A stretch of DNA of 41,283 bases from a virus. Below the pieces are notes generated by a model. It had not been told where the DNA came from, did not search any database, and saw nothing but the letters and a program-made list of their open reading frames with translations. A program made the translations under genes and the position numbers. The stretch covers positions 1-41,283 of IMG/VR virus record IMGVR_UViG_3300021178_000024; one strand, 5' to 3'. Shown piece by piece: positions 4,180 through 21,814 of this stretch. How positions within the stretch are numbered: position 1 is the first letter of the stretch; every line of letters starts with the position of its first letter.

Positions 4180-5007
4180 ATGGCTGGCGGTCAGCAGGCG
4201 ATGATGGGAAGTAGTGGGTCGGTGATTGTCTCACTGACGATCTCCGCAAGCACCACCACTCCCTACAACATCTTCACCGCTGCTGGCAGTCCGACAGCGG
4301 TGGCTTTCGTCACGTTGACTGTCAACAGCGGAGTGACCCAAGGGTCGAACAGCACTGGTACCGCAGCGGTGGACACCGGCACGGGCTGGACGACTGGCAG
4401 CACAATCCAGATTACCGGCGCGGGGAATATCTTCGGAGCGGGTGGCGCGGGCGGCAATGGTGCGAACGCCAGCACCGGAGCGGCCAACAACGGCGGCAAT
4501 GGTGGTGCTGGCGGAAACGCGGTCAACGAGCAGATCGATGTGGACTATACCGGCTTCACCGGGATCATCGGTGGCGGTGGCGGAGGCGGCGCGGGCGGGG
4601 GTGGATTCACCGGCACCAACGCACCGGGCTCGGGCGGTGGCGGTGGTGGGGCTGGCGCAGGCACAGGCGGGACTGCGGGCACCCACACCGGCACCGGTGC
4701 TGATGGCACGGCCGGAACCACTCCATCGGCCACGTCTTCGACCGGCGGCACGGGTGGCAACAATGGGAATGGGACCGGGACTGCGGGCACTGGTGGTACT
4801 GCGGGCAATGCGGGCGGCGCAGCGGGCGGCTCGGGAGGCACGGGTGGTGCGGGCGGTGGCGGAGGTGGCCTTGGCGGCGCAGGTGGCGCTGGCGCCGGTG
4901 CAAACGGCTCCGCGGGCTCCACGGGCGCCGCCGGCAAAGCCATCAACCTGAACGGTCACGCCGCCAACAATCACGGCAGCGCCACCATCTATGGAGCGAT
5001 TTCTTAA
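4180..5007 (+). CDS. Glycine-rich tail tip / adhesin-like protein (275 aa)
   Basis: The ATG at 4180 follows a GGCGGAG ribosome site. Residues 1-85 are beta-rich with Thr/Val alternation and end in STIQITGAGNIFGAGGAGG, a phrase typical of glycine-rich phage tail-tip domains. Residues 85-245 are more than half glycine, arranged as long poly-Gly runs broken by Ala/Thr/Asn turns. The tail end has the residues HAANNHGSATIYGAIS. Glycine-rich domains of this kind in T-even-like adhesins fold as packed polyglycine II helices with distal loops that contact the receptor. Whether the same fold applies here is inference. It follows the fibre gene by 13 bp and probably caps it. Poly-Gly coding makes the antisense frames open, but those are shadows. 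Confidence 0.7.
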   Translation: MAGGQQAMMGSSGSVIVSLTISASTTTPYNIFTAAGSPTAVAFVTLTVNSGVTQGSNSTGTAAVDTGTGWTTGSTIQITGAGNIFGAGGAGGNGANASTGAANNGGNGGAGGNAVNEQIDVDYTGFTGIIGGGGGGGAGGGGFTGTNAPGSGGGGGGAGAGTGGTAGTHTGTGADGTAGTTPSATSSTGGTGGNNGNGTGTAGTGGTAGNAGGAAGGSGGTGGAGGGGGGLGGAGGAGAGANGSAGSTGAAGKAINLNGHAANNHGSATIYGAIS

Positions 5008-5033
5008 GCCCCGTGAAGTGGGCACTTGCAAAC

Positions 5034-5062
5034 TTGACTCCCTCCCCCCTTCCAGCTACGCT
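5034..5062 (+). promoter_or_regulatory. Candidate sigma70-type promoter before the lysis cassette
   Basis: TTGACT at 5034-5039 is followed after 17 bp by TACGCT at 5057-5062. The -35 box matches consensus at five of six positions, the -10 box at only three. It sits in the 83-bp gap between the adhesin gene and the first lysis-cassette gene. Weak evidence, by eye only. Confidence 0.3.
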
Positions 5063-5090
5063 GCCCCATGCAACCCTCCGGAGATACGCG

Positions 5091-5291
5091 ATGGATCTAA
5101 CAAACCTGTCCCCTGCCGTGATCGATGAAATGGTCCGAGCACTCCAGTTCAAGATCCTCGCGGGGATCAATCCCCACGTCGCGCAGTCGGCGCTCACGGA
5201 CCTGTTGCAATCCGCAAAGACCACTCCGCAATCCGTCGCCACCACCCCACTGCAGCCCAACCCACCGGAGTCGCCGGGGCTGACAACGTGA
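5091..5291 (+). CDS. Small hypothetical protein, first gene of lysis cassette (66 aa)
   Basis: The ATG at 5091 is preceded by CCGGAG at a good distance. An upstream in-frame ATG at 5013 has no ribosome site and would add a low-complexity leader, so 5091 is preferred. The protein begins MDLTNLSPAVIDEMVRAL, is helical for about 45 residues and ends in a Pro/Thr-rich tail. No membrane segment is visible. Its TGA overlaps the GTG start of the next gene (GTGA). I do not recognise the family. Confidence 0.6.
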   Translation: MDLTNLSPAVIDEMVRALQFKILAGINPHVAQSALTDLLQSAKTTPQSVATTPLQPNPPESPGLTT

Positions 5292-5485
5292 TTGATCCGG
5301 TGGACTACGGCAAGCTTGTTGAGAAGGTTGATCGGCTTGAGCTGGACATGGCCAAGGCGAACGCCAAACTCGATGCCGTCCTCGATAAGATCAACCAAGT
5401 GCGCGGCGCGAAGTGGGCATTCGGCGTCATCGCCGCAGTCCTGGCCTCCAGCATCACCCATGCCGTCCACAAATGGCTTCCCTGA
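5288..5485 (+). CDS. XhlA-like / holin-like membrane protein (65 aa)
   Basis: A GTG start overlaps the preceding stop. Residues 5-40 form a charged heptad-like helix (KLVEKVDRLELDMAKANAKL), residues 42-60 one hydrophobic segment (WAFGVIAAVLASSITHAV), and the end is HKWLP. A coiled coil followed by one C-terminal membrane helix is the layout of XhlA-type proteins, which work with holins in several phages. The gene lies in the lysis cassette and overlaps the next gene by 13 bp. Family membership is judged from layout, not from a search. Confidence 0.6.
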   Translation: MIDPVDYGKLVEKVDRLELDMAKANAKLDAVLDKINQVRGAKWAFGVIAAVLASSITHAVHKWLP

Positions 5486-5895
5486 TTGCCCAGCGGGTTG
5501 AGGTCGGGCCGCGTGGCTCCTTCGCGGAGATCTTCAACGACGATGGGCATATGATGTGGACGGGGGAGCATTGCTACCAGAATGCAGCAGGCCTCTGGCT
5601 CCCTAAAGTGGCCGCGGGAGTGTGGGAGTGCAAGCGCGGCATCCACACCATCCCCACCGGCGAGAAGTTCGACACCTTCGAGGTGCAGAACGTCCCCGGC
5701 CACACTGGAATCCTCTTCTGCCACCCCGGCAACCTGCCCCAAGTGGACTCCGACGGCTGCTTTCTGTGCGGCCTGTCCCTTGGCTGGCTCAAATCCGCCC
5801 GCGCCATCATCATGTCCCGCAACGCCTTCGCCCTGTTCACCCGATGGTGCACTGGCCTGGACTCCTTCACCCTGACGATCGCTGACCCGATATGA
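5473..5895 (+). CDS. DUF5675-like protein, candidate lysis enzyme (140 aa)
   Basis: I start the gene at ATG 5473, which reads MASLIAQRVEVGPRG; the earlier in-frame ATG at 5413 would overlap the previous gene by more than 70 bp. The protein resembles the DUF5675 family: an entry strand region, IPTGEKFDTFEV near residue 60, then ILFCHPGN (residues 80-87) and VDSDGCFLCG (91-100). The ordered His84, Asp92/Ser93 and Gly95-Cys96 are reminiscent of the His and Ser-x-Gly-Cys elements of L,D-transpeptidase-type enzymes, but that link is inference. It sits among a coiled-coil membrane protein, a holin-like protein and spanins. No lysozyme, amidase or transglycosylase gene is visible elsewhere, so it is the leading candidate for the endolysin role. 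Confidence 0.6.
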   Translation: MASLIAQRVEVGPRGSFAEIFNDDGHMMWTGEHCYQNAAGLWLPKVAAGVWECKRGIHTIPTGEKFDTFEVQNVPGHTGILFCHPGNLPQVDSDGCFLCGLSLGWLKSARAIIMSRNAFALFTRWCTGLDSFTLTIADPI

Positions 5896-6134
5896 ACTGG
5901 ACTCCCCTTGTCAACGCCTTTCGTGACCCCAATGGAGACTTCAACGTGGCGGAGGGGATTGCTGCGCTGGGTGCTCTTTCCAATATTGGTGTGCCTCTAC
6001 ATAACTACATTGCTCACGGCGTTGCTCCTGATCTTATTGCTAGCGGCACTGCTCTTGGTCTTATCATTACAGCCGTCGCTGCCGCTCGAAGATTCGATCC
6101 CGTGCGAGATCGGGACCGAGGAGACCACCAGTGA
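5892..6134 (+). CDS. Holin-like small membrane protein (80 aa)
   Basis: The start overlaps the previous stop as ATGA. After a short polar start (MNWTPLVNAFRDPNGDFN) there are two hydrophobic stretches, about residues 18-40 and 44-67, followed by a highly charged tail (RRFDPVRDRDRGDHQ). Two membrane helices and a charged C terminus are usual for class II holins. The neighbours (DUF5675-like protein before, spanins after) support a holin or holin partner. The sequence itself carries no diagnostic motif. Confidence 0.55.
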   Translation: MNWTPLVNAFRDPNGDFNVAEGIAALGALSNIGVPLHNYIAHGVAPDLIASGTALGLIITAVAAARRFDPVRDRDRGDHQ

Positions 6135-6640
6135 TGAGTTATCTCTATGGCGGGGTTGGGTTGCTCGTGCTGTTACTCGCTGGTTGGGGGTACGTTGAGC
6201 ATACGCAGATCCTCACCCTGCGCCTGACCATCAGCCAGTATCAAACGGCGACCGCACAGGCCGAAGTCAAGGCCAAAGAGACCGCCGACCGCAATAAGCA
6301 AACCGCTCAGGAGATTTCCGATGCCAATGATGCTCAAGTCAAGTCGATGGCTGATGCCATTACTACTCTGCTCATGCGCAAGCCAAGCCCCAATCGCTCC
6401 GCCAGTGTGCCCGCCCCCGCCACCAGCGCCCCAATCGCTGATGCAGGAGCCCTCGGACAGCCAGGTGGAGGCAATCCTGCAAGCGCTGACTGTCCGGCTG
6501 TGCCAGACCGATCCGACACAGCCGCGGTGCTCGGCACAGCCATCCTCGGATGGGAGCAGGTGAGGTCATGGAGACAGTGGCAAAGACAGGTAAGCCAGTC
6601 CCCGCCGACAAACCCATCCCCTACGATCTCGTCCGAATAG
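6131..6640 (+). CDS. Rz-like inner-membrane spanin (i-spanin)
   Basis: The start is GTG 6131 or the ATG three bases later; both overlap the previous stop. One N-terminal membrane helix (YLYGGVGLLVLLLAGWGYV) is followed by a charged, Gln/Ala/Lys-rich helix to about residue 75, then a Pro/Ala/Ser-rich tail. This is the architecture of Rz: anchored in the inner membrane with a periplasmic coiled coil that pairs with Rz1 to fuse the two membranes at lysis. A complete lipoprotein gene (6321-6563) is nested inside it in another frame, as in the classic Rz/Rz1 arrangement. Confidence 0.8.
   Translation: MMSYLYGGVGLLVLLLAGWGYVEHTQILTLRLTISQYQTATAQAEVKAKETADRNKQTAQEISDANDAQVKSMADAITTLLMRKPSPNRSASVPAPATSAPIADAGALGQPGGGNPASADCPAVPDRSDTAAVLGTAILGWEQVRSWRQWQRQVSQSPPTNPSPTISSE
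6321..6563 (+). CDS. Rz1-like outer-membrane lipoprotein spanin (o-spanin), nested
   Basis: This 80-residue frame lies entirely within the Rz-like gene and has its own AGGAG site 6 bp before the ATG at 6321 (ATGs at 6327 and 6330 are alternatives). The N terminus is a short signal peptide (SSRWLMPLLLCSC) with a lipobox ending LCSC. The next 20 residues are very Pro-rich (APPVCPPPPPAP), the hallmark of Rz1. The mature part carries further Cys residues near VRLCQTDPTQPRC. The overlap, lipobox and Pro-rich linker together make the call firm even though the protein is small. Confidence 0.8.
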   Translation: MPMMLKSSRWLMPLLLCSCASQAPIAPPVCPPPPPAPQSLMQEPSDSQVEAILQALTVRLCQTDPTQPRCSAQPSSDGSR

Positions 6641-6900
6641 TCTGGTTGGACGCGTCAGGGGACACAGGTTTCAAGCCCGTGTCCGAGATCAAGGAGGAGC
6701 GCACCAAGGTCACGACGGTGGGCTTTCTCATCCACAAGACCCGCGACCACTACCTCACTGGGGGGAGTGTGTTCCGGGAGACGGATGGGGAGTACTACTT
6801 CGGCGATCGCAACCACATCCCCCGCGCAATGGTGAAGGAGTTGACCGTGATAGCAGCCAAACCCTCCCGCAAGCAGCAGGCTCCCAATGCCAGCTCGTAG
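6568..6900 (+). CDS. Hypothetical protein (110 aa)
   Basis: I choose ATG 6568, which follows AGGTGAGG; the in-frame ATG at 6550 is an alternative. The gene overlaps the end of the Rz-like gene and its own 3' end overlaps the metallophosphoesterase start by 14 bp. The protein (YDLVRIVWLDASGD, then KVTTVGFLIHKTRDHYLTGG, then YFGDRNHIPRAMVKEL) looks like a compact alpha/beta fold with a Lys/Arg-rich tail. I do not recognise the family. Close coupling to the phosphoesterase may mean a shared task. Confidence 0.65.
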   Translation: METVAKTGKPVPADKPIPYDLVRIVWLDASGDTGFKPVSEIKEERTKVTTVGFLIHKTRDHYLTGGSVFRETDGEYYFGDRNHIPRAMVKELTVIAAKPSRKQQAPNASS

Positions 6901-7855
6901 AACAATCACCGATGCCCAGATCCGCCACGCGGCCCAGCTCTACAGGGAGTTCGGCCCCAAGCATACGGCGCGGGAGTTGGGACTGCCGGAGTACAAGGTT
7001 GAGTATCTAGTCAGGAAAGCGATCCATGCGGGCTATCTTGCCGATCGCGCGACGCCCATCTTCGAGAGCGGGATGCGCCGTACCCAATCCATCGAGGGCC
7101 GCATCCAGAAGCACCTGACCGATGGCTACATCCTGATAGGCTCCGACTGCCACTACTTCCCCGGCGTGGTCTCCGCCGCCCACCGCGCCTTCGTCAAGAT
7201 GTGCCGGGAGATCCGCCCGGCCATGGTGGTGCTGAATGGGGATGTGTTCGATGGCTCGACCATCAGCCGGCACCCACGGATCGGCTGGGATAGCAAGCCG
7301 ACGGTGGCCGAAGAGCTGCGCGTAGTGGATGAACGCACGGGGGAGATCGAAGAGGCCGCCGGGACGAGGGAGCTCTATTGGCTGTTGGGGAATCACGACG
7401 CCCGCTATGAGACCTTCCTCGCCGCCCACGCACCCGAGTTCCAGAACGTGGATGGTTTCACGCTCAAGAGTCACTTCCCGGCCTGGAAACCTGGCTGGTC
7501 CCTCTTCATCAACGACGACTGCGTCATCAAGCACCGGTTCAAGGGTGGGATTCATGCGACCCACACTAACACGCTCTGGGCGGGCCGTACCACCATTACT
7601 GGCCACTTGCACAGCCAGCGGGTCACTCCTCTGTCCGACTACAACGGGACGCGGTGGGGGGTGGACTGCGGGACGATGGCGGCGCCCTATGGGCCGCAGT
7701 TTCAGGACTACACGGAGGATAATCCTAAGAATTGGCGGTCGGGGTTCGTCCTCGCGCGCTACTGGAGGGGCAGACTGCTGGAGCCCCAGACGGTGACCGT
7801 GCTGGACGAAGAGGCCGGACTGGTGCGGCTCGGCACAGAGGTCTTTGAGGTATGA
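6887..7855 (+). CDS. Metallophosphoesterase with N-terminal HTH (322 aa)
   Basis: Residues 5-50 look like a helix-turn-helix (TDAQIRHAAQLYREFG, HTARELGLPEYKVEYLV). From residue 80 the calcineurin-like metallophosphoesterase motifs follow in order: SDCHY (86-90), NGDVFDG (117-123), GNHDAR (168-173), GGIHATHT (220-227) and TGHLHSQR (238-245). These supply the Asp, His and Asn ligands of a two-metal centre. The substrate may be a phosphodiester or nucleic acid; the DNA-binding-type N terminus favours a nuclease. Similar genes occur near the end of late operons in several short-tailed phages. Its stop overlaps a small membrane protein gene (ATGA). Confidence 0.8.
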   Translation: MPARRTITDAQIRHAAQLYREFGPKHTARELGLPEYKVEYLVRKAIHAGYLADRATPIFESGMRRTQSIEGRIQKHLTDGYILIGSDCHYFPGVVSAAHRAFVKMCREIRPAMVVLNGDVFDGSTISRHPRIGWDSKPTVAEELRVVDERTGEIEEAAGTRELYWLLGNHDARYETFLAAHAPEFQNVDGFTLKSHFPAWKPGWSLFINDDCVIKHRFKGGIHATHTNTLWAGRTTITGHLHSQRVTPLSDYNGTRWGVDCGTMAAPYGPQFQDYTEDNPKNWRSGFVLARYWRGRLLEPQTVTVLDEEAGLVRLGTEVFEV

Positions 7856-8025
7856 GCAGCAACGACCCCGCCGTCGCCCTCCTGTGCCTCACCCTCCTGT
7901 TCGGCTGCGTGGTCTGCTTAATGATGTCGGCAGTCTACCTCGTCCTCGCCTGGCACGAGGAGAGCCGCCGCAAGCCGCCTAGAAAGCCGCCTTCTTCTCC
8001 GCCCCCGCCCGCACCATCGGATTAG
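7852..8025 (+). CDS. Small single-pass membrane protein (57 aa), end of rightward run
   Basis: The ATG overlaps the phosphoesterase stop as ATGA. The protein has one long hydrophobic segment (VALLCLTLLFGCVVCLMMSA, then VYLVLA), followed by HEESRRKPPRK and a Pro-rich tail. Its last 47 bp lie opposite the 3' end of the leftward gene 7979-9181, so the two transcription units collide tail-to-tail here. No function can be assigned. Confidence 0.6.
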   Translation: MSSNDPAVALLCLTLLFGCVVCLMMSAVYLVLAWHEESRRKPPRKPPSSPPPPAPSD

Positions 8026-9181
8026 CCGGGTCGGTGCGGTAGTCCACCCAGAAGTGCCCTGACGCTGCCCCCATCGCAATGATATCCTCGACCTCGGACT
8101 TGCGGGGGAAGTAGCGCTTGGCCCAGGCGTACAGCTCGGCGTAGGGGATGGCCCCCCGCTTGACCACCATCTGGGACAGGCGCTCGCTCTGAAGCGCCTC
8201 CGCGCTCATCCCAATCTTCTCGAAGACGAGCTGCATGTCGGCCTCCAGATCGCTCAGCATGCTCACCGCGGTCTCCAGATCGTCCCGGGAGATCACCAAC
8301 TCATCCGTGTGGCTCGCCGCCAGGATCATGGCGACCTTGTGCGCCAAGGTCTGCTTGCGGGCGATGTAGCCTCCGAAGCGACTGGAGTCCATCAGCAGCG
8401 CTTCTTGCCGGTAGTGGCGCTCATACCAAGCCGATCCCCACTCTTTGGCCTCGGGGGTGAGTGAGTACTCACCAACTATGGACTCACTGATGTGGGTCAG
8501 GTCAGCAATCAGGTCCTCCCGCAATCCCTCGAACCCCGTCTGGGCCTCCGGATAGGCCACGTACCGCTCCTTCTCCGCGATGTAGACGAACAGGCAGCGG
8601 GAGGCGAACCCGCCCCCGATCATGTACTCCGGGAAGTTAGCCGCGATCCACTCCGGGTTCGTCGCCGCCAGCACATTGATCCACGGATTGACCACCTCAT
8701 CAGTGCCGCTGTTCTTGGTGACCTTGGTAAACGGCTTCCCATCCCAGAGGTGGACGAGCATGTCAATCATCTGGCGGTCGCGTGGATCGATCAGGTTGCC
8801 GAACTCGCTGGAGTGGATGGTGACCGGGCTCATGGTCAGCAGCTCCCCATTGTGGAGGAAGGTCTCCCGCGCCTCGGCGAAGTAGGTCACCAGAGCCTGC
8901 CACGTCACGACCGCGGGGCCGAAGCGGATCTTGGGAACAGCACGCAGGAGTTGCATCGCCACATCCGTCGTGGTGCTCTTGGCCACCACCCCCGGCTTCG
9001 CCACGAAGACGATGTAGAGGTTGGGATACCAGTCGTAGCCGGGGAAGTGCATCCACACCTTGCGACGCAGGGCGCCCGCGATGGCAGAGCAGGCACACCA
9101 GAAGCGCATCCGGGTTGGGGCTTCCCCGAAACTGGAGTAGTCCACATAGGACTTCACCCAGTCATCCAGCCTCCTAGGCAC
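7979..9181 (-). CDS. DUF3987-like P-loop ATPase / helicase-like replication protein (400 aa)
   Basis: The protein has a degenerate P-loop near residue 62 (AKPGVVAKSTT), an acidic strand element (IHSSEFGNLID) and the phrase HLWDGKPFTKVTKNSGTDEV followed by NPWINVLAATNPEWI and GGGFASRCLFVY. These match the layout of DUF3987-type ATPases found in phage and integrative-element replication modules. Residues 280-400 are helical and may be a winged-helix end. It overlaps the polymerase gene by 8 bp and is the last gene of the leftward run. A role as replicative helicase or primase-helicase partner is inferred; no separate primase is visible. Confidence 0.65.
   Translation of the reverse strand: MPRRLDDWVKSYVDYSSFGEAPTRMRFWCACSAIAGALRRKVWMHFPGYDWYPNLYIVFVAKPGVVAKSTTTDVAMQLLRAVPKIRFGPAVVTWQALVTYFAEARETFLHNGELLTMSPVTIHSSEFGNLIDPRDRQMIDMLVHLWDGKPFTKVTKNSGTDEVVNPWINVLAATNPEWIAANFPEYMIGGGFASRCLFVYIAEKERYVAYPEAQTGFEGLREDLIADLTHISESIVGEYSLTPEAKEWGSAWYERHYRQEALLMDSSRFGGYIARKQTLAHKVAMILAASHTDELVISRDDLETAVSMLSDLEADMQLVFEKIGMSAEALQSERLSQMVVKRGAIPYAELYAWAKRYFPRKSEVEDIIAMGAASGHFWVDYRTDPANPMVRAGAEKKAAF
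8461..8472. repeat. 12-bp palindrome GTGAGTACTCAC (operator-like motif copy)
   Basis: A perfect palindrome inside the DUF3987-like gene, the same family as the copies in the control region (consensus GTGAGYRCTCAC). Confidence 0.4.
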
Positions 9182-11612
9182 AATCCCCCCAACTCTTCTC
9201 CGACACCTTAACCCCCACCGGAATTCTCAAAGGCTCAGGATACGGGATTGGGGTGCTCGCCCCAATTTCTCCAAGTCTTCGACGGTAGGTGGGGGCGTCG
9301 GCGATTGGATATTGGCCGACGAGGGAGTCGTGGACTTGGAGGAGGATCTGGACGGCGGGGAGTTCGACGGCGATCCTGTCCCAGATGTGGTTGATGAGCA
9401 AGCCGATTGTTGACTGGGGGATCCAGGCAGCAGCTCGATTGTAGATGTTCCCCTCCATCCGCTCAAAAAAGTACCGGCGATATCCGAAAGCATTTCGGAC
9501 TGTTCGGGTGGAGTTAAGGTCGGACTTGAGACGAGACTGCCATGTGGGGATTGCTGGAAATCGAGCAAAGTACCAAGCTTGAATGCGTTCAACCTCTTTA
9601 ACACCCAACCCAAGTCGTTTGGCAAGTCCACTTGGAGTTCCAAGGTAATTCGTAGCGTGGGCGAAGGATTTGAAGGTGCGGTAGCGGGGGTGGTCTCGGG
9701 TAATGGTTGGGTCATTGTAGAACTCCTTGGCAATCTCCACATAGGGATTTAGGTCGGCGGCCAGCATGGCCTTCAGCTCGGGCTCATCTGCCTCCCACAC
9801 CACCACCCTCAAGTCCGCGCTCGACAGGTCCATGTCGAACATCTCCATGCCCTCTTCGGGTAGGAAGAGCTTGCGGATGTTGGGCAGGACTAGGGGAATG
9901 CCCTCGCCCTTCCTCTCCCCACCTTCGGGCACGTTCTGGAGGTTCATCCCCGAACCGAACGCGTTCTGGCTGGAGGAGAGGCGGAAGGTATCGGTCCCAC
10001 CGACATTGTAGCTGCACCGAATGCGGCCGTCGAGATCGAGCTTGCTCTCCACGAAGGTGCTCTTGAAGACGCCCAGGGAGCGGATCTCCAGGATGCGCTG
10101 CACCAGCGGGCGGACAAGGGGAGTGCGGGCAGCGAGCTGCTTAAGCGCCTCCTCGTTGGTACTGACCTTTGACCCCTCCTTCGTGCGGATTTTGATCTGG
10201 GGGAGGCGGAAGTCCTTGTAGAAGAGGGTCTTAAGCTGCTTGTGGGAGCGGATGTTCAAGGGATGGCCGAGGATACTCTCCATCCACTCCTCGCGCTGCT
10301 TGATCTCCGCGCGCAGCTCGACGGCCAGTCCCCGCTTGGTCGCCGCGTCGGTCCGCACTCCCCGGATCATGGTGTCGAGGGTGTGCCACCACATTTGGTG
10401 CTGGAAGACACATTGGTCCTCCAACCCTTCCTGCTTAACGAGCCGCGTTAAATGCTGCGCGATCTCCCAGGTAGCTACGCAATCTCGACAGTTATAGTTC
10501 CATCGTCCCAAGTCGTCTTCTCGCTCGTCGGCTTCTTTGGACTCTTGCTTCCAGAACGAGTGATACTCACAGTAGAGACTTGAGAGGGTAGCGAGATCCT
10601 TGTCAGTTCCCGGCCACAGTACATGATGACCAAGCATTGTGTCGAAGGCCAGTCGAGGCTTGAAGCCCCATTGGCGCCAGATGTACTGGATGTCATAGCT
10701 AAAGTTCTGTCCGGTGATGCGAGCGTTGGGGTGGGTGAGAAGTTCCCTAAGTGCCCGAACAATAGCTTGTTCCTCCAATTCGGTCCAATAGTTAGAGCGG
10801 GCACGGGACCAGAAGGGGATGCAAAGAGCAGCGGTTGCGGACCAGCCAATCCCAATGCAGTCAATTTGGCCGCGGCGGGTTTCGATGTCAATGGAGAGAA
10901 GCCGGGGTCGTTGTTCAATCTCCATTCTAAGTATTTTGAGTTGCACATGGACTTGTTCCAGAGTGGGATTGGTGGTGAAGTTGAAGGTCGGCTTGCAGAT
11001 GCCGTTCGCTAAGGCGTCACACCCACGTGCAAGGTCGCGCGCAACGTATGGCCGCCAGCTCCACTGATGGAGTATAGCCGCAGGGTGATAGGTAGGCAGG
11101 ATTGATCCAAATGGAGATTCAAACAGCGAACCTCGCCAGTTGGAGATGCCGAGTCGGCCGGTGACCACCCAAAGAGCCAGACCTCCGAGGGCGATGATAA
11201 GCGCAGGCTGAACCTGGGCAAGTTCGGCTTGAAGGCGATCGAGGGAATCGGCGACGGTGGGGTGGAATCCCAGTTGTGCTCCTCCACCAAGGGAGGCGAC
11301 CCACTGCCAACCCGCGGGAAGCTTCTTTTTGAAGCTGACGAGCGTGTTGAGCTTGTTTTGCGCGGGGCGCGTTTTGAGGACATTGGTGATGTAGCAGTCC
11401 TTCCGCGCGATGCCCGCTTCCCGGAGGAGCTTGGTGAGTTCGGCACCCGCGGCGCCGACGAATGGCCGGCCTTGGACTTCTTCATTCGCTCCAGGCGCCT
11501 CCCCCAGCACTAGAATCCGGGCCGGGATCGGTCCCTCCCCCAGCACCTCCATCCTGGGCGGAGTGCTCGGCGATGAGGAATTCTGTCCGGGCAGCTCGTT
11601 CGATTCGCTCAT
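9174..11612 (-). CDS. Uracil-DNA-glycosylase-like / family A DNA polymerase fusion (812 aa)
   Basis: Residues 30-200 form a family 4-type uracil-DNA glycosylase-like domain: GEAPGANEE (37-45), TNVLKTRP (76-83), ALGGLAL (141-147) and YHPAAIL (175-181). Residues 238-390 are a DnaQ-type 3'-5' exonuclease: DIET (242-245), NFSYD (303-307), NCRDC (374-378). Residues 405-812 are a PolA-type polymerase: motif A DLSSADLR (595-602), motif B RTFKSFAHATNYLG (645-658), motif C QVHDSL (759-764). It is the phage replicative polymerase. Such a fusion is known from phage SPO1. The glycosylase part lacks the Cys ligands usual for an iron-sulphur cluster (KTRP in place of KCRP). The ATG at 11612 and an internal ATG at 11552 are both possible starts; neither has a strong ribosome site. 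Confidence 0.9.
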   Translation of the reverse strand: MSESNELPGQNSSSPSTPPRMEVLGEGPIPARILVLGEAPGANEEVQGRPFVGAAGAELTKLLREAGIARKDCYITNVLKTRPAQNKLNTLVSFKKKLPAGWQWVASLGGGAQLGFHPTVADSLDRLQAELAQVQPALIIALGGLALWVVTGRLGISNWRGSLFESPFGSILPTYHPAAILHQWSWRPYVARDLARGCDALANGICKPTFNFTTNPTLEQVHVQLKILRMEIEQRPRLLSIDIETRRGQIDCIGIGWSATAALCIPFWSRARSNYWTELEEQAIVRALRELLTHPNARITGQNFSYDIQYIWRQWGFKPRLAFDTMLGHHVLWPGTDKDLATLSSLYCEYHSFWKQESKEADEREDDLGRWNYNCRDCVATWEIAQHLTRLVKQEGLEDQCVFQHQMWWHTLDTMIRGVRTDAATKRGLAVELRAEIKQREEWMESILGHPLNIRSHKQLKTLFYKDFRLPQIKIRTKEGSKVSTNEEALKQLAARTPLVRPLVQRILEIRSLGVFKSTFVESKLDLDGRIRCSYNVGGTDTFRLSSSQNAFGSGMNLQNVPEGGERKGEGIPLVLPNIRKLFLPEEGMEMFDMDLSSADLRVVVWEADEPELKAMLAADLNPYVEIAKEFYNDPTITRDHPRYRTFKSFAHATNYLGTPSGLAKRLGLGVKEVERIQAWYFARFPAIPTWQSRLKSDLNSTRTVRNAFGYRRYFFERMEGNIYNRAAAWIPQSTIGLLINHIWDRIAVELPAVQILLQVHDSLVGQYPIADAPTYRRRLGEIGASTPIPYPEPLRIPVGVKVSEKSWGDCA

Positions 11613-13489: not shown

Positions 13490-14296
13490 TTAAATTGCTT
13501 CAATCAGACCACCGGCTTTCTTCCACGCCTCGATGAGCGGGCCGAAAGCCGGGGATTGGTTGGCCGCGTAGGAGAGGTAGCGTTTCTTGGAGAGCGCCCC
13601 ATCTGCCACATTCGTCCAATCAAACTTGTTGCCGGCGCGCTGCGCGAGAATCACCTCGTCGAAGCTGCGGCCGATGACCCCAGCGAGTGCTTTGCCGGGG
13701 AGTGCGGGGGTGATGCGCATGCCCCCGTTGAGCGGGTCGATCTCCTTTTCCGCGTGTGCGATCACGAGTACGTGGCAGCGCAGGCCACACAGGATGGCTA
13801 GGAGGTTTTTGAGCTGCGTCTGGGCGATCATGTAGTCGGGTTTGTCGAGGAGCGCGCGGCGGCCGCTGGTGTTCTGCCAGATGGCATCAGTCAGGCCCGT
13901 CATGGAGTCCACCACGAAGCAGATCCCCGTCCCCCAGTCGTCGATGTTACCCCAGTCCCGCCCATTCTGGTCAACAAACTTCTCCATCGTCTTGCCGATT
14001 AGGTCAAGGGGACTGTTGACGAAACGGTCTTTGTCCCGCTCACGACCCAGCTCGGCTTGATCCTTCGTCCCGATCGCCTCCACCTGCTTGCGGAAGTCCT
14101 CCAGGGAGCCCTTGATGGGCTTCACGTAGACCCAGCTCACCTTCTCCTTGAGGGCTTCCCCCAGCACTCCATACCCCTGCTCGGTGAAGATGCACAGGGG
14201 CTTGAGGCCGGCGGCGAGCAATGTCTCGATCGCGCGGGTCTTGCCCGTGCCGATGTCCCCGAAGAGGAGTGTTTTAGTGCCCAGCAGTGGCGACAT
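13490..14296 (-). CDS. Sak4-type RecA-like ATPase / recombinase (268 aa)
   Basis: A RecA-fold ATPase with Walker A GDIGTGKT (residues 13-20), Walker B ICFVVDSM (near 125) and a conserved strand VLVIAHAEKE (near 173). The AAA_24/Sak4 layout has the P-loop right at the N terminus, as here. Proteins of this family act as single-strand annealing recombinases. Its start lies inside the end of the YqaJ-type exonuclease gene (23-bp overlap) and it is followed by the SSB candidate, so the three form a recombination cassette. Confidence 0.75.
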   Translation of the reverse strand: MSPLLGTKTLLFGDIGTGKTRAIETLLAAGLKPLCIFTEQGYGVLGEALKEKVSWVYVKPIKGSLEDFRKQVEAIGTKDQAELGRERDKDRFVNSPLDLIGKTMEKFVDQNGRDWGNIDDWGTGICFVVDSMTGLTDAIWQNTSGRRALLDKPDYMIAQTQLKNLLAILCGLRCHVLVIAHAEKEIDPLNGGMRITPALPGKALAGVIGRSFDEVILAQRAGNKFDWTNVADGALSKKRYLSYAANQSPAFGPLIEAWKKAGGLIEAI

Positions 14297-14957
14297 TCGG
14301 TTTCCTTGTTTGGCCTAGGTGACTCAAGTGCTTGGTCAGGACGTCCACCTCTCGAAGGAACTCCTCCAACAGGCTGCGGTAGGTGCGCAGGTCCTGGGCC
14401 AACACTGAGCGCTCCGCCCGGTAAACGAAAAGCTGGAGGTCTTCGGGCAGCTCCTTGTTGAAGGAGATGAAGTCACAGAAATCGGCCTGCGTCACCAGCA
14501 TGTTGTGGAGGACCTGGCGGATGTAGTTCGGGGGGACGCGGTTGGCCTCCAAGTAGTCGATGTGGATGGCGGGCAGGGGACACTTGATCTCTACAAAGCC
14601 GTTCTCCCCCACGAAGCCATCCACTGAGCATCCGATGGGTAGCTCGCTCCAATAGGCGAACCCGGCTTGGCGAACGAGCGCGCTGGTCGCCTGCTCGTAG
14701 CGCTGCCTCGCTTCCCCCTCCAGCGCCCGCCCCCGCTCGATGTGGGAGTTGGTGAAGTCGGACAGGATCGGGCGGCCGGTCAGGCGCTCGCAGGCGAGTT
14801 GGTAGCGGTAATTGCGGCGGGTGACTGCCTCCCCACCCTTGCGACCCTCGGCCGTGACTGCGTCCGCCATGGAGCCGGTGACGCGGCCGGCGCGATCGGC
14901 GAACCAGCCCACGCTGCCCTGCTCATGCGGACTCAGGAGATATGGCAACGGGCTCAC
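14274..14957 (-). CDS. YqaJ-type PD-(D/E)XK exonuclease (227 aa)
   Basis: I use GTG 14957, which overlaps the previous stop (GTGA) and follows GAGG; a frame open to 15143 merely overlaps the upstream gene. Motifs in order: GSMADAVTAEG near residue 28, ERGRALEGEARQRYE near 77, SVDGFVGENGFVEIKCP near 113-129 (catalytic Asp, Glu-x-Lys), then YIRQVLHNMLVTQADFCDF. This is the YqaJ/lambda-exonuclease-like family, which degrades duplex ends to feed strand annealing. It pairs with the adjacent Sak4-type ATPase. Confidence 0.8.
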   Translation of the reverse strand: MSPLPYLLSPHEQGSVGWFADRAGRVTGSMADAVTAEGRKGGEAVTRRNYRYQLACERLTGRPILSDFTNSHIERGRALEGEARQRYEQATSALVRQAGFAYWSELPIGCSVDGFVGENGFVEIKCPLPAIHIDYLEANRVPPNYIRQVLHNMLVTQADFCDFISFNKELPEDLQLFVYRAERSVLAQDLRTYRSLLEEFLREVDVLTKHLSHLGQTRKPNVATAGH

Positions 14958-15190
14958 TGAAGCCTCGCCAGGGGGCGCAGGGAAGTGAATTCCCCACACC
15001 ACTGATCCGCACCCATCTCGGGGAACGGGCTTACCACCTGTGCTCCGCCCCGCCCGTTGGGGACGATCTGGGGTGGGGGCGGGAAGCGACGGCAAATGAA
15101 CACTCGTTGCTTGGTGCCTGAGGTCGCCTCCGCGTGGCGGCAATTGGAGCAGACATCAGTGCGCTGCGGGGGAGGTGGGATCTTTTTCAT
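14954..15190 (-). CDS. Small Cys-containing protein, possible zinc finger (78 aa)
   Basis: ATG 15190 follows GGAG. Cysteines occur as CSNC (residues 14-17), FICRRFP (near 33) and QWCGEF (near 65), a C-x2-C-xn-C-xn-C pattern seen in small phage zinc proteins of unknown role. It overlaps both neighbours, upstream in a different frame by 35 bp and downstream by 4 bp. Confidence 0.55.
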   Translation of the reverse strand: MKKIPPPPQRTDVCSNCRHAEATSGTKQRVFICRRFPPPPQIVPNGRGGAQVVSPFPEMGADQWCGEFTSLRPLARLQ

Positions 15191-15395: not shown

Positions 15396-15580
15396 TATCT
15401 GTCCTCTTTTTCAGCCTTTTGGTGGGCCTTTACGATGGTCTCAGCCAAGCTTTTCTCTCCATTCTCGGCGCAGATCAAAGCAAAATTTGCCCACCAAGCA
15501 TCGTGTTCCAACTTACGTAGCTGAGCTAATGCATCAGGCCCGGGTTGAAAAAGCCGTTGCCAAAATGACCGTAATTTCAT
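15395..15580 (-). CDS. Small hypothetical protein (61 aa)
   Basis: ATG 15580 follows GTGGAGGG. The protein is helical with a Trp-rich middle (MKLRSFWQRLFQPG, KLEHDAWWANFALICAENGE) and a Lys-rich end. A frame open further upstream shadows the signal-peptide gene. The ATG touches the last base of that gene's stop codon. Confidence 0.55.
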   Translation of the reverse strand: MKLRSFWQRLFQPGPDALAQLRKLEHDAWWANFALICAENGEKSLAETIVKAHQKAEKEDR

Positions 15581-15987
15581 TATCCCTCCACCTGCTTGCC
15601 CGTTGAGGGCACTCCCAGCTCCGGGGTCATCCTCTTGTCCACCGCCCCCGCCTTGACCTCGCACTGGTGCTCGATGTTGGCCGCGCTGGCCTCGATATCG
15701 ATCTCTTGTGTGCCGGATATTTCGAGCGCATAGGTCTGCTTGACGAAGTTCATCACCCGTTTGGTGTCCTCGGCATCCTTGATCGGGCAGTCGGCCGCCT
15801 GTTGGCACGCCGTGATCGCCTGCATAACGGCGGGGACGAGGTCGGTTGCGGAAATGCCGTGATTGCGCGCGCCCATGATGGAGGCAGCAATCTGCGTGTA
15901 CTGCGGACACTCCTCAAGGGTGACTTGGTGGGCGGGGGCAATGGCTGCTGCCCCCAGCATCGAGATTAACAGCAGCCATTGTCTCAT
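15580..15987 (-). CDS. Secreted/periplasmic protein with signal peptide (135 aa)
   Basis: ATG 15987 follows a strong AGGAG. Residues 1-20 are a Sec-type signal peptide (MRQWLLLISMLGAAAIAPAH). The mature part has four Cys in a spaced pattern (LEECPQY, ITACQQAADCPI, EHQCE), suggesting two disulphide bonds in the periplasm, and is otherwise helical. First-in-line neighbours upstream also carry signal peptides. Function unknown; modification of the host envelope or superinfection exclusion is a guess from context. Confidence 0.6.
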   Translation of the reverse strand: MRQWLLLISMLGAAAIAPAHQVTLEECPQYTQIAASIMGARNHGISATDLVPAVMQAITACQQAADCPIKDAEDTKRVMNFVKQTYALEISGTQEIDIEASAANIEHQCEVKAGAVDKRMTPELGVPSTGKQVEG

Positions 15988-15991
15988 CGAA

Positions 15992-16537
15992 TTACTCCTC
16001 GCGAACCGTTGAGGGTGCGGGCGCGGGCATCGGCTCCAGTGTGTACTGGATTCCCAACACGGCTGCGTGCCAGCCCGGGTCAAGCCACTCGGCCAAGGAG
16101 ATTCGGTGGCCAGTGACCGAAATCACGTGTGAGCCGGCGGCGAGGCTGCCGGGCAGCGTCCACGTATGGGCAGCAGCGCCCGTTGCACCTGCCGAGGGCG
16201 GATTCATGGGCACCCCATCTACTTCGGCGCTGTCGATGATGGTGTAGTAGTAGACATGGATGGCGCCGCCACGTCCTCCGCCAACATGAAGACTGCCATC
16301 CATGACCGTGACCGCTTGGCTGGAGGTGTAGGCCAGAACCCCGTTGCTTTCCGTCCAGTTGCCCAGCAGAAAGGTGACGGTATCGCTGAAGGGGGAGTCG
16401 GTGGGGCCGGCGCTCAAGAAGTTGCAGTTGGTGAGGGTGCCTTGTTGTGCTGCCGGGCACTGGCCGATGTTGTAGTCGGTGGCGTGGGCGACGGTGGAGA
16501 GGAGGCCGAGGATTAGTGCTGTGAGGAGGGTTTTCAT
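15992..16537 (-). CDS. Secreted beta-rich protein with signal peptide (181 aa)
   Basis: ATG 16537 follows AAGGA. Residues 1-19 are a signal peptide (MKTLLTALILGLLSTVAHA). The mature protein has one early Cys pair (GQCPAAQQGTLTNC) and alternating hydrophobic strands (DTVTFLLGNWTESNGVLAY, GAIHVYYYTIID, AAAHTWTLPGSLAAGSHVIS), consistent with a beta sandwich. It is 10 bp from the next signal-peptide gene and 4 bp from the one after. A longer frame upstream is a shadow. Confidence 0.6.
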   Translation of the reverse strand: MKTLLTALILGLLSTVAHATDYNIGQCPAAQQGTLTNCNFLSAGPTDSPFSDTVTFLLGNWTESNGVLAYTSSQAVTVMDGSLHVGGGRGGAIHVYYYTIIDSAEVDGVPMNPPSAGATGAAAHTWTLPGSLAAGSHVISVTGHRISLAEWLDPGWHAAVLGIQYTLEPMPAPAPSTVREE

Positions 16538-16547
16538 GGTTGAGTCC

Positions 16548-17345
16548 TTATTGCCAGAAGTAGTGAAACGACATGTGAACCTTGGTTCCGTTAACAAAGT
16601 TGCTTGCTTGAGACCATTCGCTGGAGTTGTAGGAGAGCCAAGCGGTGACAGGGCTGCCTGCGCAAATGGTAATGACACCCGTAAAGGTATCAGTGTATCC
16701 AGTCCCACCCCCACCACAACTAGAATAAACAGGAGGAAGAGGTAATCCTTCTAAGGAAAAGTAACTGGAACCCGCGACCGTGGGAATAGTAATATCAGCT
16801 TGAGCAAAAACCATACTTCCAACAATTTGATATTCCGCATTCTGCACTGTGATGGTTTGCGATGTTGACCCCATTGTCGCTAAAGGGGTCCACTGTACAC
16901 CAAGGGGAGTAGAGATACCTGATGTGGTGGAGGTGATGGCCCCACTTGGAGGAGTGCTATACCCCCCAAAAATGTATGCATTTTCCAGTGCGGTCTTTCC
17001 ACCGTCGCACGAGGATACGCAGAACCCGCTTGGAGGAGTGGACAAAGAAGCCCCTAGTAATGTTGGTGCGGCATAAGAATGAAACCCTATTATGCCCGTT
17101 TGGCACCAATTTATTGAGTGTCCATTATTACCGTTGCCGGAGGCATTTGCGGCCGTGGTAAAACTCCTATTACAGACAACGTTGGCTGCTGTTTGGTAGT
17201 CGTCTGGGGAAGTTGAGCCTGTAACTGGGGCGCAATAGACTGGACCGCTCCCACCACCAATCGCGGTGGTGCAAACGTATGGTGCTAATTGAGCGTTTGC
17301 CCAGACGGGCAACATTAAAACCAAAACTGCAAAAAATCTTCTCAC
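16548..17345 (-). CDS. Secreted Cys-containing beta-rich protein with signal peptide (265 aa)
   Basis: The GTG start at 17345 is preceded by AGGAG. Residues 1-19 are a signal peptide (MRRFFAVLVLMLPVWANA). The mature part is Ser/Thr/Gly-rich with about eight Cys (YVCTTAIGG, VVCNRSF, NWCQTG, FCVSSCDGG, SSCGGG, ITICAG), likely disulphide-bonded outside the cytoplasm. The last 50 residues (TAWLSYNSSEWSQASNFVNG, VHMSFHYFWQ) look like a beta-sandwich edge. Base composition is visibly more AT-rich than in the flanking genes, which hints at separate origin. Function unknown. Confidence 0.6.
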   Translation of the reverse strand: MRRFFAVLVLMLPVWANAQLAPYVCTTAIGGGSGPVYCAPVTGSTSPDDYQTAANVVCNRSFTTAANASGNGNNGHSINWCQTGIIGFHSYAAPTLLGASLSTPPSGFCVSSCDGGKTALENAYIFGGYSTPPSGAITSTTSGISTPLGVQWTPLATMGSTSQTITVQNAEYQIVGSMVFAQADITIPTVAGSSYFSLEGLPLPPVYSSCGGGGTGYTDTFTGVITICAGSPVTAWLSYNSSEWSQASNFVNGTKVHMSFHYFWQ

Positions 17346-17346
17346 T

Positions 17347-17412
17347 TCATATCTCCTTTTTGGTTCCCCACCAACCGGGCGGGATGCGGTCGTCGTCGGA
17401 GTCGTGGATCAT
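17347..17412 (-). CDS. Possible micropeptide (21 aa)
   Basis: An ATG at 17412 overlaps the stop of the upstream gene (ATGA), and the frame (MIHDSDDDRIPPGWWGTKKE) ends in the ribosome site of the next gene. It may serve translational coupling only. Low confidence because of its length. Confidence 0.3.
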   Translation of the reverse strand: MIHDSDDDRIPPGWWGTKKEI

Positions 17413-17939
17413 TTGCCGCCCTCGTGCTCGGAGGCCAATTGCTTGAGCCGCTCCATTCTGTCGGCCGGCTCCGTGTTCCACAGATCCTCGTAGGCTTCCC
17501 TCAACGCCTCCCGCCTCGCATCCCTCACCAGCCGCTCGTGGATCTCGCGGGGGATGGCGTCCGGCGGCGCTTCGTACAGAGGGATCACGCACAGTCCGGA
17601 TTGCTGCCATTCCTCCGCAAGCTTTTTGCTCTGAGTGCAATCGTTCAGGAAGTCTTTCGCCACGTCGGCCATGAACGCTACGGGCTCGCCCTTCCCGGCT
17701 GGCGGTTGAGGGGCGGCGGCTTCGACAACCTTTTCAGCCAGCGCCGTAAGACGTTTGAATTCTTCCTCGCCATATCCGCTTTGGATGTAGATCCCATGAA
17801 CGAAAAACTGCACCCACCCTGCATCGGTTATGCTGACCAACGCCACCGCCTTCGCGTCCGGGGGCTGTGCGAGGGCGGCATCCCCGATAGCAGTCTTTAC
17901 AGCTTGCCTCAGGCCATAGTCCCGCGCGGATTCAGTCAT
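17409..17939 (-). CDS. Hypothetical phage protein with PVAF...PLYEAP motif (176 aa)
   Basis: Residues 1-80 look like a compact alpha/beta domain (ALVSITDAGWVQFFVHGIY). Residues 85-125 contain KGEPVAFMADVAKDF and then LCVIPLYEAPP, a pair of phrases repeated in many small phage proteins of unknown function. The C terminus is highly charged and helical (HERLVRDARREALREAYEDL). The ATG overlaps the previous micropeptide stop. Confidence 0.6.
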   Translation of the reverse strand: MTESARDYGLRQAVKTAIGDAALAQPPDAKAVALVSITDAGWVQFFVHGIYIQSGYGEEEFKRLTALAEKVVEAAAPQPPAGKGEPVAFMADVAKDFLNDCTQSKKLAEEWQQSGLCVIPLYEAPPDAIPREIHERLVRDARREALREAYEDLWNTEPADRMERLKQLASEHEGGK

Positions 17940-18016
17940 AGCTCAATAATTCCGTAGTGGCAGGCCACGACACCGACCACAAACCCAACTCCCACCCCAA
18001 TCACGAATATCAACAT
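17936..18016 (-). CDS. Membrane micropeptide (26 aa)
   Basis: ATG 18016 has a very strong GGGAGGGAG ribosome site. The peptide is a single Gly/Val-rich membrane helix (MLIFVIGVGVGFVVGVVACH) ending YGIIEL. Both ends overlap neighbours by a few bases. The ribosome site and packing support it. Confidence 0.45.
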   Translation of the reverse strand: MLIFVIGVGVGFVVGVVACHYGIIEL

Positions 18017-18240
18017 TTCTCCCTCCCCACCACCGGTGCCTCAAGCACCTTCTCAATCTGCCCCTTCAACTCTCGGAGCACCCATCGCAGCGCCCTCTCC
18101 CCACCCCGATCCCGGCTGTACCCCGCTGCCCATCGCGTCAGCGATTCCACACTCACCCCGCTCTCCCTAGCCAGCGCACTGAGCACCACGACATCCGATT
18201 GGAGAAGCTTCTGCAAGGGGTCTGAGTGTACCCTTCCCAT
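18010..18240 (-). CDS. Small HTH-like protein (76 aa)
   Basis: I start at ATG 18240; the frame remains open to 18372 inside the next gene. Residues 10-40 read like a helix-turn-helix (LLQSDVVVLSALARESGVSV, ESLTRWAAG), and the rest is a basic helix. A DNA-binding or regulatory role is possible. The start lacks a clear ribosome site; a copy of the GTGAG...CAC motif (18247-18258, two mismatches) lies immediately upstream. Confidence 0.5.
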   Translation of the reverse strand: MGRVHSDPLQKLLQSDVVVLSALARESGVSVESLTRWAAGYSRDRGGERALRWVLRELKGQIEKVLEAPVVGREKC

Positions 18241-18259
18241 CCGTGAGTGAGCAACCACT

Positions 18260-18859
18260 TCAGAACCTCCACCGCACGCTGACGTTGAAGACGCTCCAGC
18301 CCAGACCCTGGTACTGGGTCTGGGTCGGTCCGAGGCTAACGTTCTGGGCGCGCACGAGGCGCCAGTTGGCAAGCAGGTCGGCGTGGGGGCTCAGTCGGAT
18401 ACCGAGGCCCGCCAACGGGCTGAAGAGAATCTGGGTATTACCCACCATCAGGGGATGGGGCGGGCCGCCGGCTGTCCAATCGGGCACGGACATGTGGAAT
18501 TCGGACTTCACTGCCCCGGCGCCGAGCTGGGCGAAGACCGGGCCGAGATGGGGCTCCCAAGCTGCCCAGATGCCTAGCGGTTGCTCGCTGCCGTTCCAGT
18601 GGGAGTAGGGGACGCGACCGCTGCTGCAAGCGGGTTCGTTGGCGCCGCAGGCGAGTGCGTGGCTGGTGGCACGGCCCATCCGCTCGGCAGTCAAGCTCCA
18701 CTGGCTTCCCACCAGCGCGAATCCGTAGCTGGGGCCATCGAGCGAGCTGAAGGAGTGGGGCTGGTCAGCCTGCCACCAGGTGCCGTTGGGGGGAGTGCTC
18801 TCGTGGCTGGTGCCGAGGAGAGCGGCGAATTGGAGTGCGGCAAGGGCGGCGGTGCTCAC
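18260..18859 (-). CDS. Outer-membrane beta-barrel-like protein with signal peptide (199 aa)
   Basis: The GTG at 18859 overlaps the previous stop (GTGA) and follows AGGTGG. Residues 1-20 form a signal-like segment (MSTAALAALQFAALLGTSHE). The mature part starts with TWWQADQPHSFSSLDGPSYG and has alternating amphipathic strands (GFALVGSQWSLTAER, LGPVFAQLGAGAVKSEFHMS, LLANWRLVRAQNVSLG), ending in NVSVRWRF with a terminal Phe, the C-terminal signature of outer-membrane barrels. The size suits an eight-stranded barrel. Phage-coded barrels such as Lom change the host surface; a receptor-masking or exclusion role here is inference. A frame reaching 18955 is a shadow of the next gene. Confidence 0.6.
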   Translation of the reverse strand: MSTAALAALQFAALLGTSHESTPPNGTWWQADQPHSFSSLDGPSYGFALVGSQWSLTAERMGRATSHALACGANEPACSSGRVPYSHWNGSEQPLGIWAAWEPHLGPVFAQLGAGAVKSEFHMSVPDWTAGGPPHPLMVGNTQILFSPLAGLGIRLSPHADLLANWRLVRAQNVSLGPTQTQYQGLGWSVFNVSVRWRF

Positions 18860-19005
18860 AGGCCACCTGACAGGAAGAAGGAGAGCAGGATCGCCGTGCC
18901 GCACAGGAAGCCGAGCGCGAACCCGATGCCGGCCAGCAGCCAGCTCCAGGCCCATGCCTCGCGGGCCATTTCGGTGAAGGAGCGGAGGTCGGGAGTGGGA
19001 CTCAT
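18856..19005 (-). CDS. Small membrane protein (49 aa)
   Basis: ATG 19005 overlaps the previous stop and follows GGAG. After an amphipathic start (MSPTPDLRSFTEMAREAWAW) there is one long or two short membrane segments (LLAGIGFALGFLCG, TAILLSFFLSGGL). Its stop overlaps the barrel gene start, so the two are probably co-translated. Confidence 0.5.
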   Translation of the reverse strand: MSPTPDLRSFTEMAREAWAWSWLLAGIGFALGFLCGTAILLSFFLSGGL

Positions 19006-19919: not shown

Positions 19920-20125
19920 TTCCCACCTCCCGCCCCAATACCGCAAAATCCGGCGATCGTCGCCGCTTCGAGCACTGTCAGCGGGCGGTGGACGCCTTCC
20001 TGCACGGCCCTCTGGATGATGAGCATGGCATCGGCGTAGTCCTCCTGCTGCAACTGGCGCTCATCGATGCTGTCCCAGCTCTCTCCACCATTCCAATCAC
20101 TGGTAATTCCAAAATCTTTGGTCAT
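19916..20125 (-). CDS. Small hypothetical protein (69 aa)
   Basis: ATG 20125 follows GAGG; the in-frame ATG at 20158 lies in the previous gene. An acidic N terminus (MTKDFGITSDWNGGESWDSI) and a helical remainder (EDYADAMLIIQRAVQEGVHR) with a Gly-rich end. Confidence 0.5.
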   Translation of the reverse strand: MTKDFGITSDWNGGESWDSIDERQLQQEDYADAMLIIQRAVQEGVHRPLTVLEAATIAGFCGIGAGGGK

Positions 20126-20772
20126 GGGGATACCTCGCACAAGGGGAGCCATTGACAACCGGGGGCTTTCATGTCGATAAGGATTTTTACGACTTCATCG
20201 GCAAAAAAGATGAGTTCTTTTTCAGCCTCAGCGGCGGCGGCGGCGTAGGTGGCGGCGGCGGCGGCGTAGGCGGCGGCGTAGGTGGCGGCGGCGACGGCGG
20301 CGTAGATGGCGGTGGCGCGGGCGGCGCGGGCGGCGGCGGCGACGGCGGCGGAGGCGGCGGAGGCGGTGGCGCGGGCGGCGAGGGCAGTGGCAGTGTAGGG
20401 GGAGTAGGTGGCGGCGGCGGCGTTCTTAGAAGCCCTTGCAGCCATCGTATTTGCCAGCGGCACTAGTCTTTGCACAAAGTCCTTTTCATCTAATTTTCCC
20501 GCCGAATCAAGTTGGGCAACTGCGAGCTGCCTTAAACCTTTGCTCCTGCTCTGATCACTTACCCACCAAGCACTATCGTTAAGAGCAAGCTTCAATTGCC
20601 GCAACGACGGCGCAACACAAACCGGCGCATCCCCGTGGGGTAGCCCCATTGCGTAGCACACCGCCGCTTCGACGCACATTTGGCCGGGGATTGGTTTTCC
20701 TACCCCACACACCAATCCAGCATCGACAGTATCTAGCACCTTTTGGGCGATTTCCTTTGTGATTTCAATCAT
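20122..20772 (-). CDS. Hypothetical protein with long Ala-rich repeat tail (216 aa)
   Basis: ATG 20772 follows AGAGG. Residues 1-110 form an ordinary globular domain (VDAGLVCGVGKPIPGQMCVE, AAVCYAMGLPHGD, SLRQLKLALNDSAWWVSDQS). Residues 115-190 are about 70 per cent Ala with Arg/Thr/Tyr at intervals, coded by GCC/GCG triplet repeats, and probably form a long helix. The end (ELIFFADEVVKILIDMKAPG) is again ordinary. A neighbouring gene (21020-21778) has the same plan, so the two may be functionally linked. Role unknown. Confidence 0.6.
   Translation of the reverse strand: MIEITKEIAQKVLDTVDAGLVCGVGKPIPGQMCVEAAVCYAMGLPHGDAPVCVAPSLRQLKLALNDSAWWVSDQSRSKGLRQLAVAQLDSAGKLDEKDFVQRLVPLANTMAARASKNAAAATYSPYTATALAARATASAASAAVAAAARAARATAIYAAVAAATYAAAYAAAAATYAAAAAEAEKELIFFADEVVKILIDMKAPGCQWLPLCEVSP
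20228..20420. repeat. GGC-type triplet repeat tract (Ala-coding)
   Basis: An imperfect run of GGC/GGT/GCG triplets on the plus strand, coding the Ala-rich tail of the leftward gene 20122-20772. Because the unit is three bases, length changes would keep the frame. Confidence 0.7.
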
Positions 20773-21019: not shown

Positions 21020-21778
<759 letters not shown>

Positions 21779-21814
21779 GTGGTGAGTCTCCAATAGTCCG
21801 TTGTCAGTCTGCAA

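Follow-up and report, generated by a model that had tools for sequence, protein, structure and literature searches.

Why would a tailed phage keep a run of exported proteins among its DNA replication genes? The question is raised by positions 15580 to 19005 of the virus record IMGVR_UViG_3300021178_000024 (IMG/VR), which was analyzed over its whole length of 41,283 bases, hereafter the window. In this tailed phage the terminase, portal, and major head protein are encoded rightward, and the leftward genes include those for a DNA polymerase, a primase/helicase, a Sak4-like protein, and an exonuclease. A Gram-negative host is implied by an Rz-like spanin at 6131–6640. The leftward replication operon contains what we read as an envelope cassette, and by position and analogy its most likely role is superinfection exclusion through interference with a receptor or with phage entry, a reading to which we assign a probability of roughly 0.45. 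The genes of the block, whose coordinates had been placed correctly by an earlier reading of the letters without database searches (the sequence-only reading), are as follows, with lengths in amino acids (aa).

15580..15987, minus strand: P1, small secreted cysteine (Cys) protein, predicted helical, 135 aa with a 19-aa leader, divergent phrog_2315 member by profile match
15992..16537, minus strand: P2, secreted Cys-containing protein without assigned family, 181 aa with a 19-aa leader (leader score 5.95)
16548..17345, minus strand: P3, secreted Cys-rich protein of low GC content, 265 aa with an 18-aa leader and a conserved C-terminal domain (leader score 5.96)
17936..18016, minus strand: 26-aa membrane peptide, MLIFVIGVGVGFVVGVVACHYGIIEL (hydropathy 2.81; purine-rich upstream)
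18260..18859, minus strand: P4, 199 aa, a probable small beta-barrel of the outer membrane (low-confidence model) that ends in F and has a weak leader without charge
18856..19005, minus strand: 49-aa single-span membrane peptide (hydropathy 2.18; kept in a related contig, E = 5e-16)

Sec leaders and gene layout

The genes for P3, P2, and P1 follow one another leftward with 4 to 10 nucleotides between them, and each is preceded by a Shine-Dalgarno site (GGAG ahead of P3, AAGGA ahead of P2, and GAGGAG ahead of P1). Their leaders have 1 to 2 basic residues, a hydrophobic core of 12 to 14 residues, and a cleavage site of the A-x-A type, with cleavage predicted after MRQWLLLISMLGAAAIAPA in P1 (mature protein starting HQ), after MKTLLTALILGLLSTVAHA in P2 (TD), and after VRRFFAVLVLMLPVWANA in P3 (QL). 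Leader strength was measured with a simple home-made Sec-leader score, against a background of 177 annotated genes from three comparison phages. P1, P2, and P3 score 5.9 to 6.0. Of the 177 background genes, 11 score at least 4.5 (plain membrane anchors account for several of these) and about 4 score at least 5.5; among the other genes of the window, none scores 4.0 or more. Since only a few per cent of background genes score high, three adjacent leaders are not a chance effect of composition. The three consecutive Sec-type leaders of the sequence-only reading are thus canonical in form, and export of P1, P2, and P3 by Sec to the host envelope is a well-supported prediction from sequence. Inside the block, promoter and terminator signals do not rise above chance, which is consistent with one operon. 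Position is the basis on which we infer that the block is expressed early, before or with the replication proteins. The three membrane peptides named alongside the leaders came down to two, those at 18856–19005 and 17936–18016; a third was not found.

P2 has no trustworthy match in Pfam, PHROG, or NCBIfam, and neither a direct scan nor tblastn against phages recovered a relative. A hit to phrog_7114, labeled minor tail protein, had E = 0.006, below any sensible threshold for acceptance. For P3, too, the direct scan and tblastn against phages gave no relatives. Matches of P3 to TAL effectors in the PDB were set aside as a repeat artefact, all of them lying within residues 88 to 123 with no single stretch that passes, and the idea that its C-terminal domain is a tail-fibre domain was dropped after no phage match appeared even at E = 10.

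The slot in related phages

The position of the block was compared in one syntenic relative and one more distant phage. The syntenic relative, L010, is a 24-kilobase (kb) viral contig recovered by a search with the Sak4 protein, which it encodes at 77% identity. The genes that frame the slot in the window are the following.

13490..14296, minus strand: Sak4-like annealing ATPase, downstream flank, the query that recovered L010 (phrog_124, E = 1e-15; 77% in L010)
14274..15143, minus strand: phage exonuclease, start uncertain, downstream flank (phrog_149, E = 2e-30)
17409..17939, minus strand: predicted cytoplasmic protein flanking the slot (phrog_28084, E = 4e-7; L010 homologue, E = 4e-4)
18010..18240, minus strand: small cytoplasmic protein, possibly DNA-binding, upstream edge of the slot (homologue at L010 990–1244, E = 8e-10)

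In L010, the slot lies between the exonuclease and homologues of 17409–17939, 18010–18240, and 18856–19005 (E from 4e-4 to 5e-16). It holds five exported-type open reading frames (ORFs) in all, the P1 and P3 homologues being the only two in common with the window. The P1 homologue is 29% identical (E = 1e-6). A 255-aa protein has a C-terminal domain homologous to that of P3, the C-terminal 96 aa of which are 24% identical to this protein in the same slot (E = 4e-6). Two other secreted proteins are unrelated, and a 57-aa protein at L010 3921–4094, with the lipobox LAAC and about the size of T5 Llp or Cor, has no family match. By hhalign, neither P2, nor the two middle L010 proteins, nor a 295-aa protein of the more distant phage could be linked to P3. 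The position of P4 is taken in L010 by a different short ORF (L010 614–928), apparently rich in beta strands and not detectably related to P4 by hhalign. In ctMlz233, the nearest relative by terminase (56% identity over the large terminase), the genome is collinear over the virion and replication genes and the envelope block is absent.

The more distant phage, L002 (71.8 kb), encodes, within 4.1 kb, a protein 60% identical to P4 and two secreted proteins that are P1-like; near the P4 relative lies a 287-aa secreted protein (295 aa from an upstream start). The L002 segment at 4453–10070 comprises the P4 relative, a secreted Cys protein, a match to an ATP-dependent protease family, a thymidylate synthase, and the two P1-like proteins.

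The swap in L010 and the absence in ctMlz233 indicate that the slot keeps the property of being exported as its contents turn over. This suggests that P3–P2–P1, with P4 nearby, form an exchangeable cassette, an impression to which base composition adds. The P3 gene has a GC content of 0.49 and a third-position GC content (GC3) of 0.45, in a window with GC 0.61, and the L010 homologue (L010 2396–3163) has GC 0.50 and GC3 0.46; other measured genes have GC3 of 0.70 to 0.87. Low values in both phages suggest that the P3 gene is foreign or specially constrained. As for finding the same block in related phages, the slot itself is kept in L010 with P1 and P3 homologues, and its other contents differ. 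The larger claim, that the block is aimed at the host envelope, is supported by the leaders, by the non-homologous exported proteins in the L010 slot, by the leader-bearing family of P1, and by the barrel-like P4; none of the homologues found is a known cytoplasmic protein, the outcome that would have spoken against it. The roles put forward in the sequence-only reading (superinfection exclusion, receptor masking, and envelope remodelling) are candidate functions.

Elsewhere in the window and in L010, very long alanine-rich low-complexity stretches lie upstream in the same operon (window 20122–20772 and 21020–21814; L010 1–286), and these genes have no family match. The window gene at 37209–38780 matches phrog_5107, labeled amidase, but its ctMlz233 counterpart (2e-92) is annotated as a phage stabilization protein, so that one of the two labels is likely wrong.

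P1, its family, and the putative barrel

P1 is, by sequence, a divergent member of phrog_2315, an uncharacterized family of which no mention was found in the literature searched. The phrog_2315 profile matches P1 with E = 2.6e-6, residues 1 to 110 aligning to positions 1 to 104 of 109. Because leaders alone can yield false matches, a mature-only model was built from 10 cultured members; mature P1 scores 19.2 bits against it, a score reached by none of 2,000 shuffles. The L010 homologue is weak both against the full-length profile (E = 1.4e-3) and against the mature-only model (3.1 bits, reached by 16 of 2,000 shuffles), and what ties it to the family is the full-length match together with its relation to P1. 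Scans for P1 relatives by sequence found none, nor did tblastn against phages, and a Pfam hit to Xol-1 was below any sensible threshold.

Family members were located with a probe composed from a motif, and membership was then set independently by hmmscan. The probe found a matching protein in 60 phage records; 10 were fetched, and all 10 belong to phrog_2315 (E from 1e-14 to 4e-35), each with a leader and with one Cys close behind the cleavage site and a second toward the C-terminal end. The family occurs in phages whose hosts include Vibrio, Pseudoalteromonas, Aeromonas, Acinetobacter, Stenotrophomonas, Xanthomonas, Pseudomonas, and others. The 60 records as a whole cover ten genera of Gram-negative hosts and varied genome positions, and the proteins carry no functional annotation.

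P1 shares with family members such as H105/1 gp13, FoX2 gp44, and phiPSA1 gp03 the leader, two invariant Cys, and the motifs IM..R..G and V..TY. C27 and C109 (P1 numbering) are invariant in all 14 aligned sequences, and P1 comes close to the IM..RQ.GV motif with IMGARNHGI, in which N stands in place of Q and I in place of V. P1 differs from the other members in its longer tail, and P1, its L010 homologue, and one L002 protein differ from the family in having two extra Cys and a longer middle. The spacing of the four Cys is alike in these three proteins (8, 42, 48, and 90 in mature P1; 12, 46, 55, and 91 in the L010 homologue; 8, 41, 50, and 87 in the L002 protein). The four-Cys L002 protein escapes detection by the mature-only model, and its two-Cys neighbor scores 8.3 bits against it, a score that no shuffle out of 2,000 reaches.

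Structure models rest on shallow alignments drawn from the few loci compared. The AlphaFold2 model of P1 has four helices at low confidence (predicted local distance difference test, pLDDT, 65), and a structure search with it found no significant relative. The low-confidence AlphaFold2 model of P4 matches small outer-membrane barrels over residues 51 to 199 (NspA, Z = 8.8; OmpA, 8.8; OmpW, 8.6; OprF, 7.8; OmpX, 6.7); these alone occupy the top of the list, the next class, avidins, having Z of about 4. The P4 C terminus, FNVSVRWRF, bears the terminal F and alternating hydrophobic residues of the outer-membrane signature (P4 ends in GWSVFNVSVRWRF and a relative in GWGVFSLSLRSEF). Relatives 60% identical to P4 occur in two viral contigs close to each other, and P4 has no family match, no match among PDB sequences, and no hit by tblastn against phages. 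P4 is thus a probable outer-membrane barrel on the basis of its model. The beta-barrel-like character claimed by the sequence-only reading is supported by the low-confidence model, as a candidate eight-stranded fold, and by the C-terminal F; the leader is weak, and how P4 would be exported is the least secure part of the scheme.

Proposed roles of the cassette

Exported, swapped between relatives, and lost in others, the proteins of the slot most plausibly act as accessory envelope effectors. Among effector roles, we favor superinfection exclusion on account of documented use: T4 Spackle and T5 Llp are early-made small phage envelope proteins that serve it (PMC7677548, PMC9586334; review PMC11436027). 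Spackle, which is small, helical, and exported and has a Cys29–Cys81 bridge, inhibits the lysozyme in the tail of incoming T4 (PMC7677548, PMC7650644), and Llp carries a Cys11–Cys58 bridge (PMC9586334). By analogy, P3–P2–P1 and P4 would be made before or with the replication proteins, P1, P2, and P3 would be exported by Sec, and the products would take effect in a Gram-negative host's periplasm and outer membrane, with P4 inserted in the latter. P1 would be a small disulfide-stabilized periplasmic protein that binds a component of the incoming phage or, from inside, the host receptor, and P2 and P3 would serve either as variable partners or to mask the surface.

Identity of P1 with Spackle was considered and rejected on sequence. 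Full-length profiles gave a probability of 50%, in an alignment that was mostly signal peptide; with leaders removed and five Spackle sequences, hhalign gave 10.1 versus 15.9 for the best of 60 shuffled controls. The P1-family model scored 6.9 bits against Spackle, which 17 of 2,000 shuffles reached and which is not significant with several proteins tried, and no Spackle chain was among the listed structural matches of the P1 model. P1 may still act in a Spackle-like manner, by analogy.

Several points weigh against exclusion. P1 is without detectable sequence relation to Spackle or to the T4 antiholin RI, and Pfam found no virion lysozyme domain in ten structural or lysis-region proteins of the window. 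Genes of phrog_2315 adjoin late as well as early genes, so that early expression is no rule of the family. The P4 model has a pLDDT of 48, with one of five models clearly better, and the P4 leader is short, lacks basic residues, and scores 1.4 (the leader of the 60% relative is comparably weak, at 1.65). What the data show is the leaders, the place of P1 in its family, the changed contents of the slot in a relative, and the barrel-like fold prediction for P4; the exclusion function itself, its timing, and the location of P4 we infer.

An unlikely alternative is that the cassette benefits the host or converts its envelope more generally, altering the surface of the infected cell or lysogen, along the lines of lambda Lom or the cyanophage outer-membrane-like proteins, for ends such as adhesion, stress tolerance, or nutrient uptake. 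The barrel-like P4 would suit such a role, with cyanophage barrels near the top of the viral structure library though none significant, as would the phrog_2315 gene beside a cI-like repressor gene in H105/1; no integrase was seen among the subset of window genes scanned, hence no sign of lysogeny. Rather less credible is support of phage production or DNA entry by periplasmic or outer-membrane factors, such as proteins that inhibit envelope proteases or stress responses of the host. The location beside replication genes and the wide spread of the P1 family would fit, but relatives that have exchanged the set or do without it show that it is not part of the essential core.

We consider it improbable that P1 controls lysis from the periplasm, as an RI-like antiholin or regulator, with the other exported proteins joining in at the end of infection. 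P1 does resemble RI in being small, helical, disulfide-capable, and predicted periplasmic, yet profile comparison with leaders removed gives nothing (a score of 9.6 over three columns), and a probable lysis cassette lies elsewhere at 5413–6900, in the opposite direction to the block, with a DUF5675 protein, a small protein, and the Rz-like spanin. That the ORFs are silent or the leaders non-functional is very improbable, for although long ORFs arise by chance in this GC-rich region, these have good ribosome-binding sites and spacing, P1 belongs to a family, and P3 and P4 are conserved at the protein level in other phages.

Phages carry single exported exclusion proteins. If superinfection exclusion is the correct reading, a swappable run of three to five such proteins beside the replication genes would point to a hotspot of its own for envelope-targeted competition. 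The run also offers a first lead on phrog_2315, an uncharacterized family whose phages infect many Gram-negative genera, and is somewhere to look for further exclusion proteins. The exported-protein cassette is interesting and testable, and not categorically new.

Compared with known systems, P1 differs from T4 Spackle in the length of its mature part (116 versus 75 aa), in the lack of sequence relation once leaders are removed, and in that no lysozyme target was found; it resembles Spackle as a small exported helical protein with one Cys just past the leader and a second close to the C terminus, encoded near replication genes, among which the T4 sp gene also sits. None of the leaders of P1 to P4 has the lipobox of T5 Llp and Cor, lipoproteins that block FhuA, but these too are small phage-made envelope proteins, and the L010 slot has its 57-aa lipobox protein. 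P4 differs from NspA, OmpA, OmpW, phage Lom, and the cyanophage proteins in its weak leader, and its likeness to them comes from a low-confidence model without a sequence match; it shares with them the predicted barrel and the terminal F signature. More speculatively, and on balance we doubt it, the slot could be a dedicated, rapidly exchanged envelope effector locus of environmental phages, in which a barrel, a four-Cys periplasmic protein, and variable secreted partners jointly block other phages at several steps; such a locus might then be seen, just as tentatively, as an outward-directed counterpart of the anti-defence islands in other phages.

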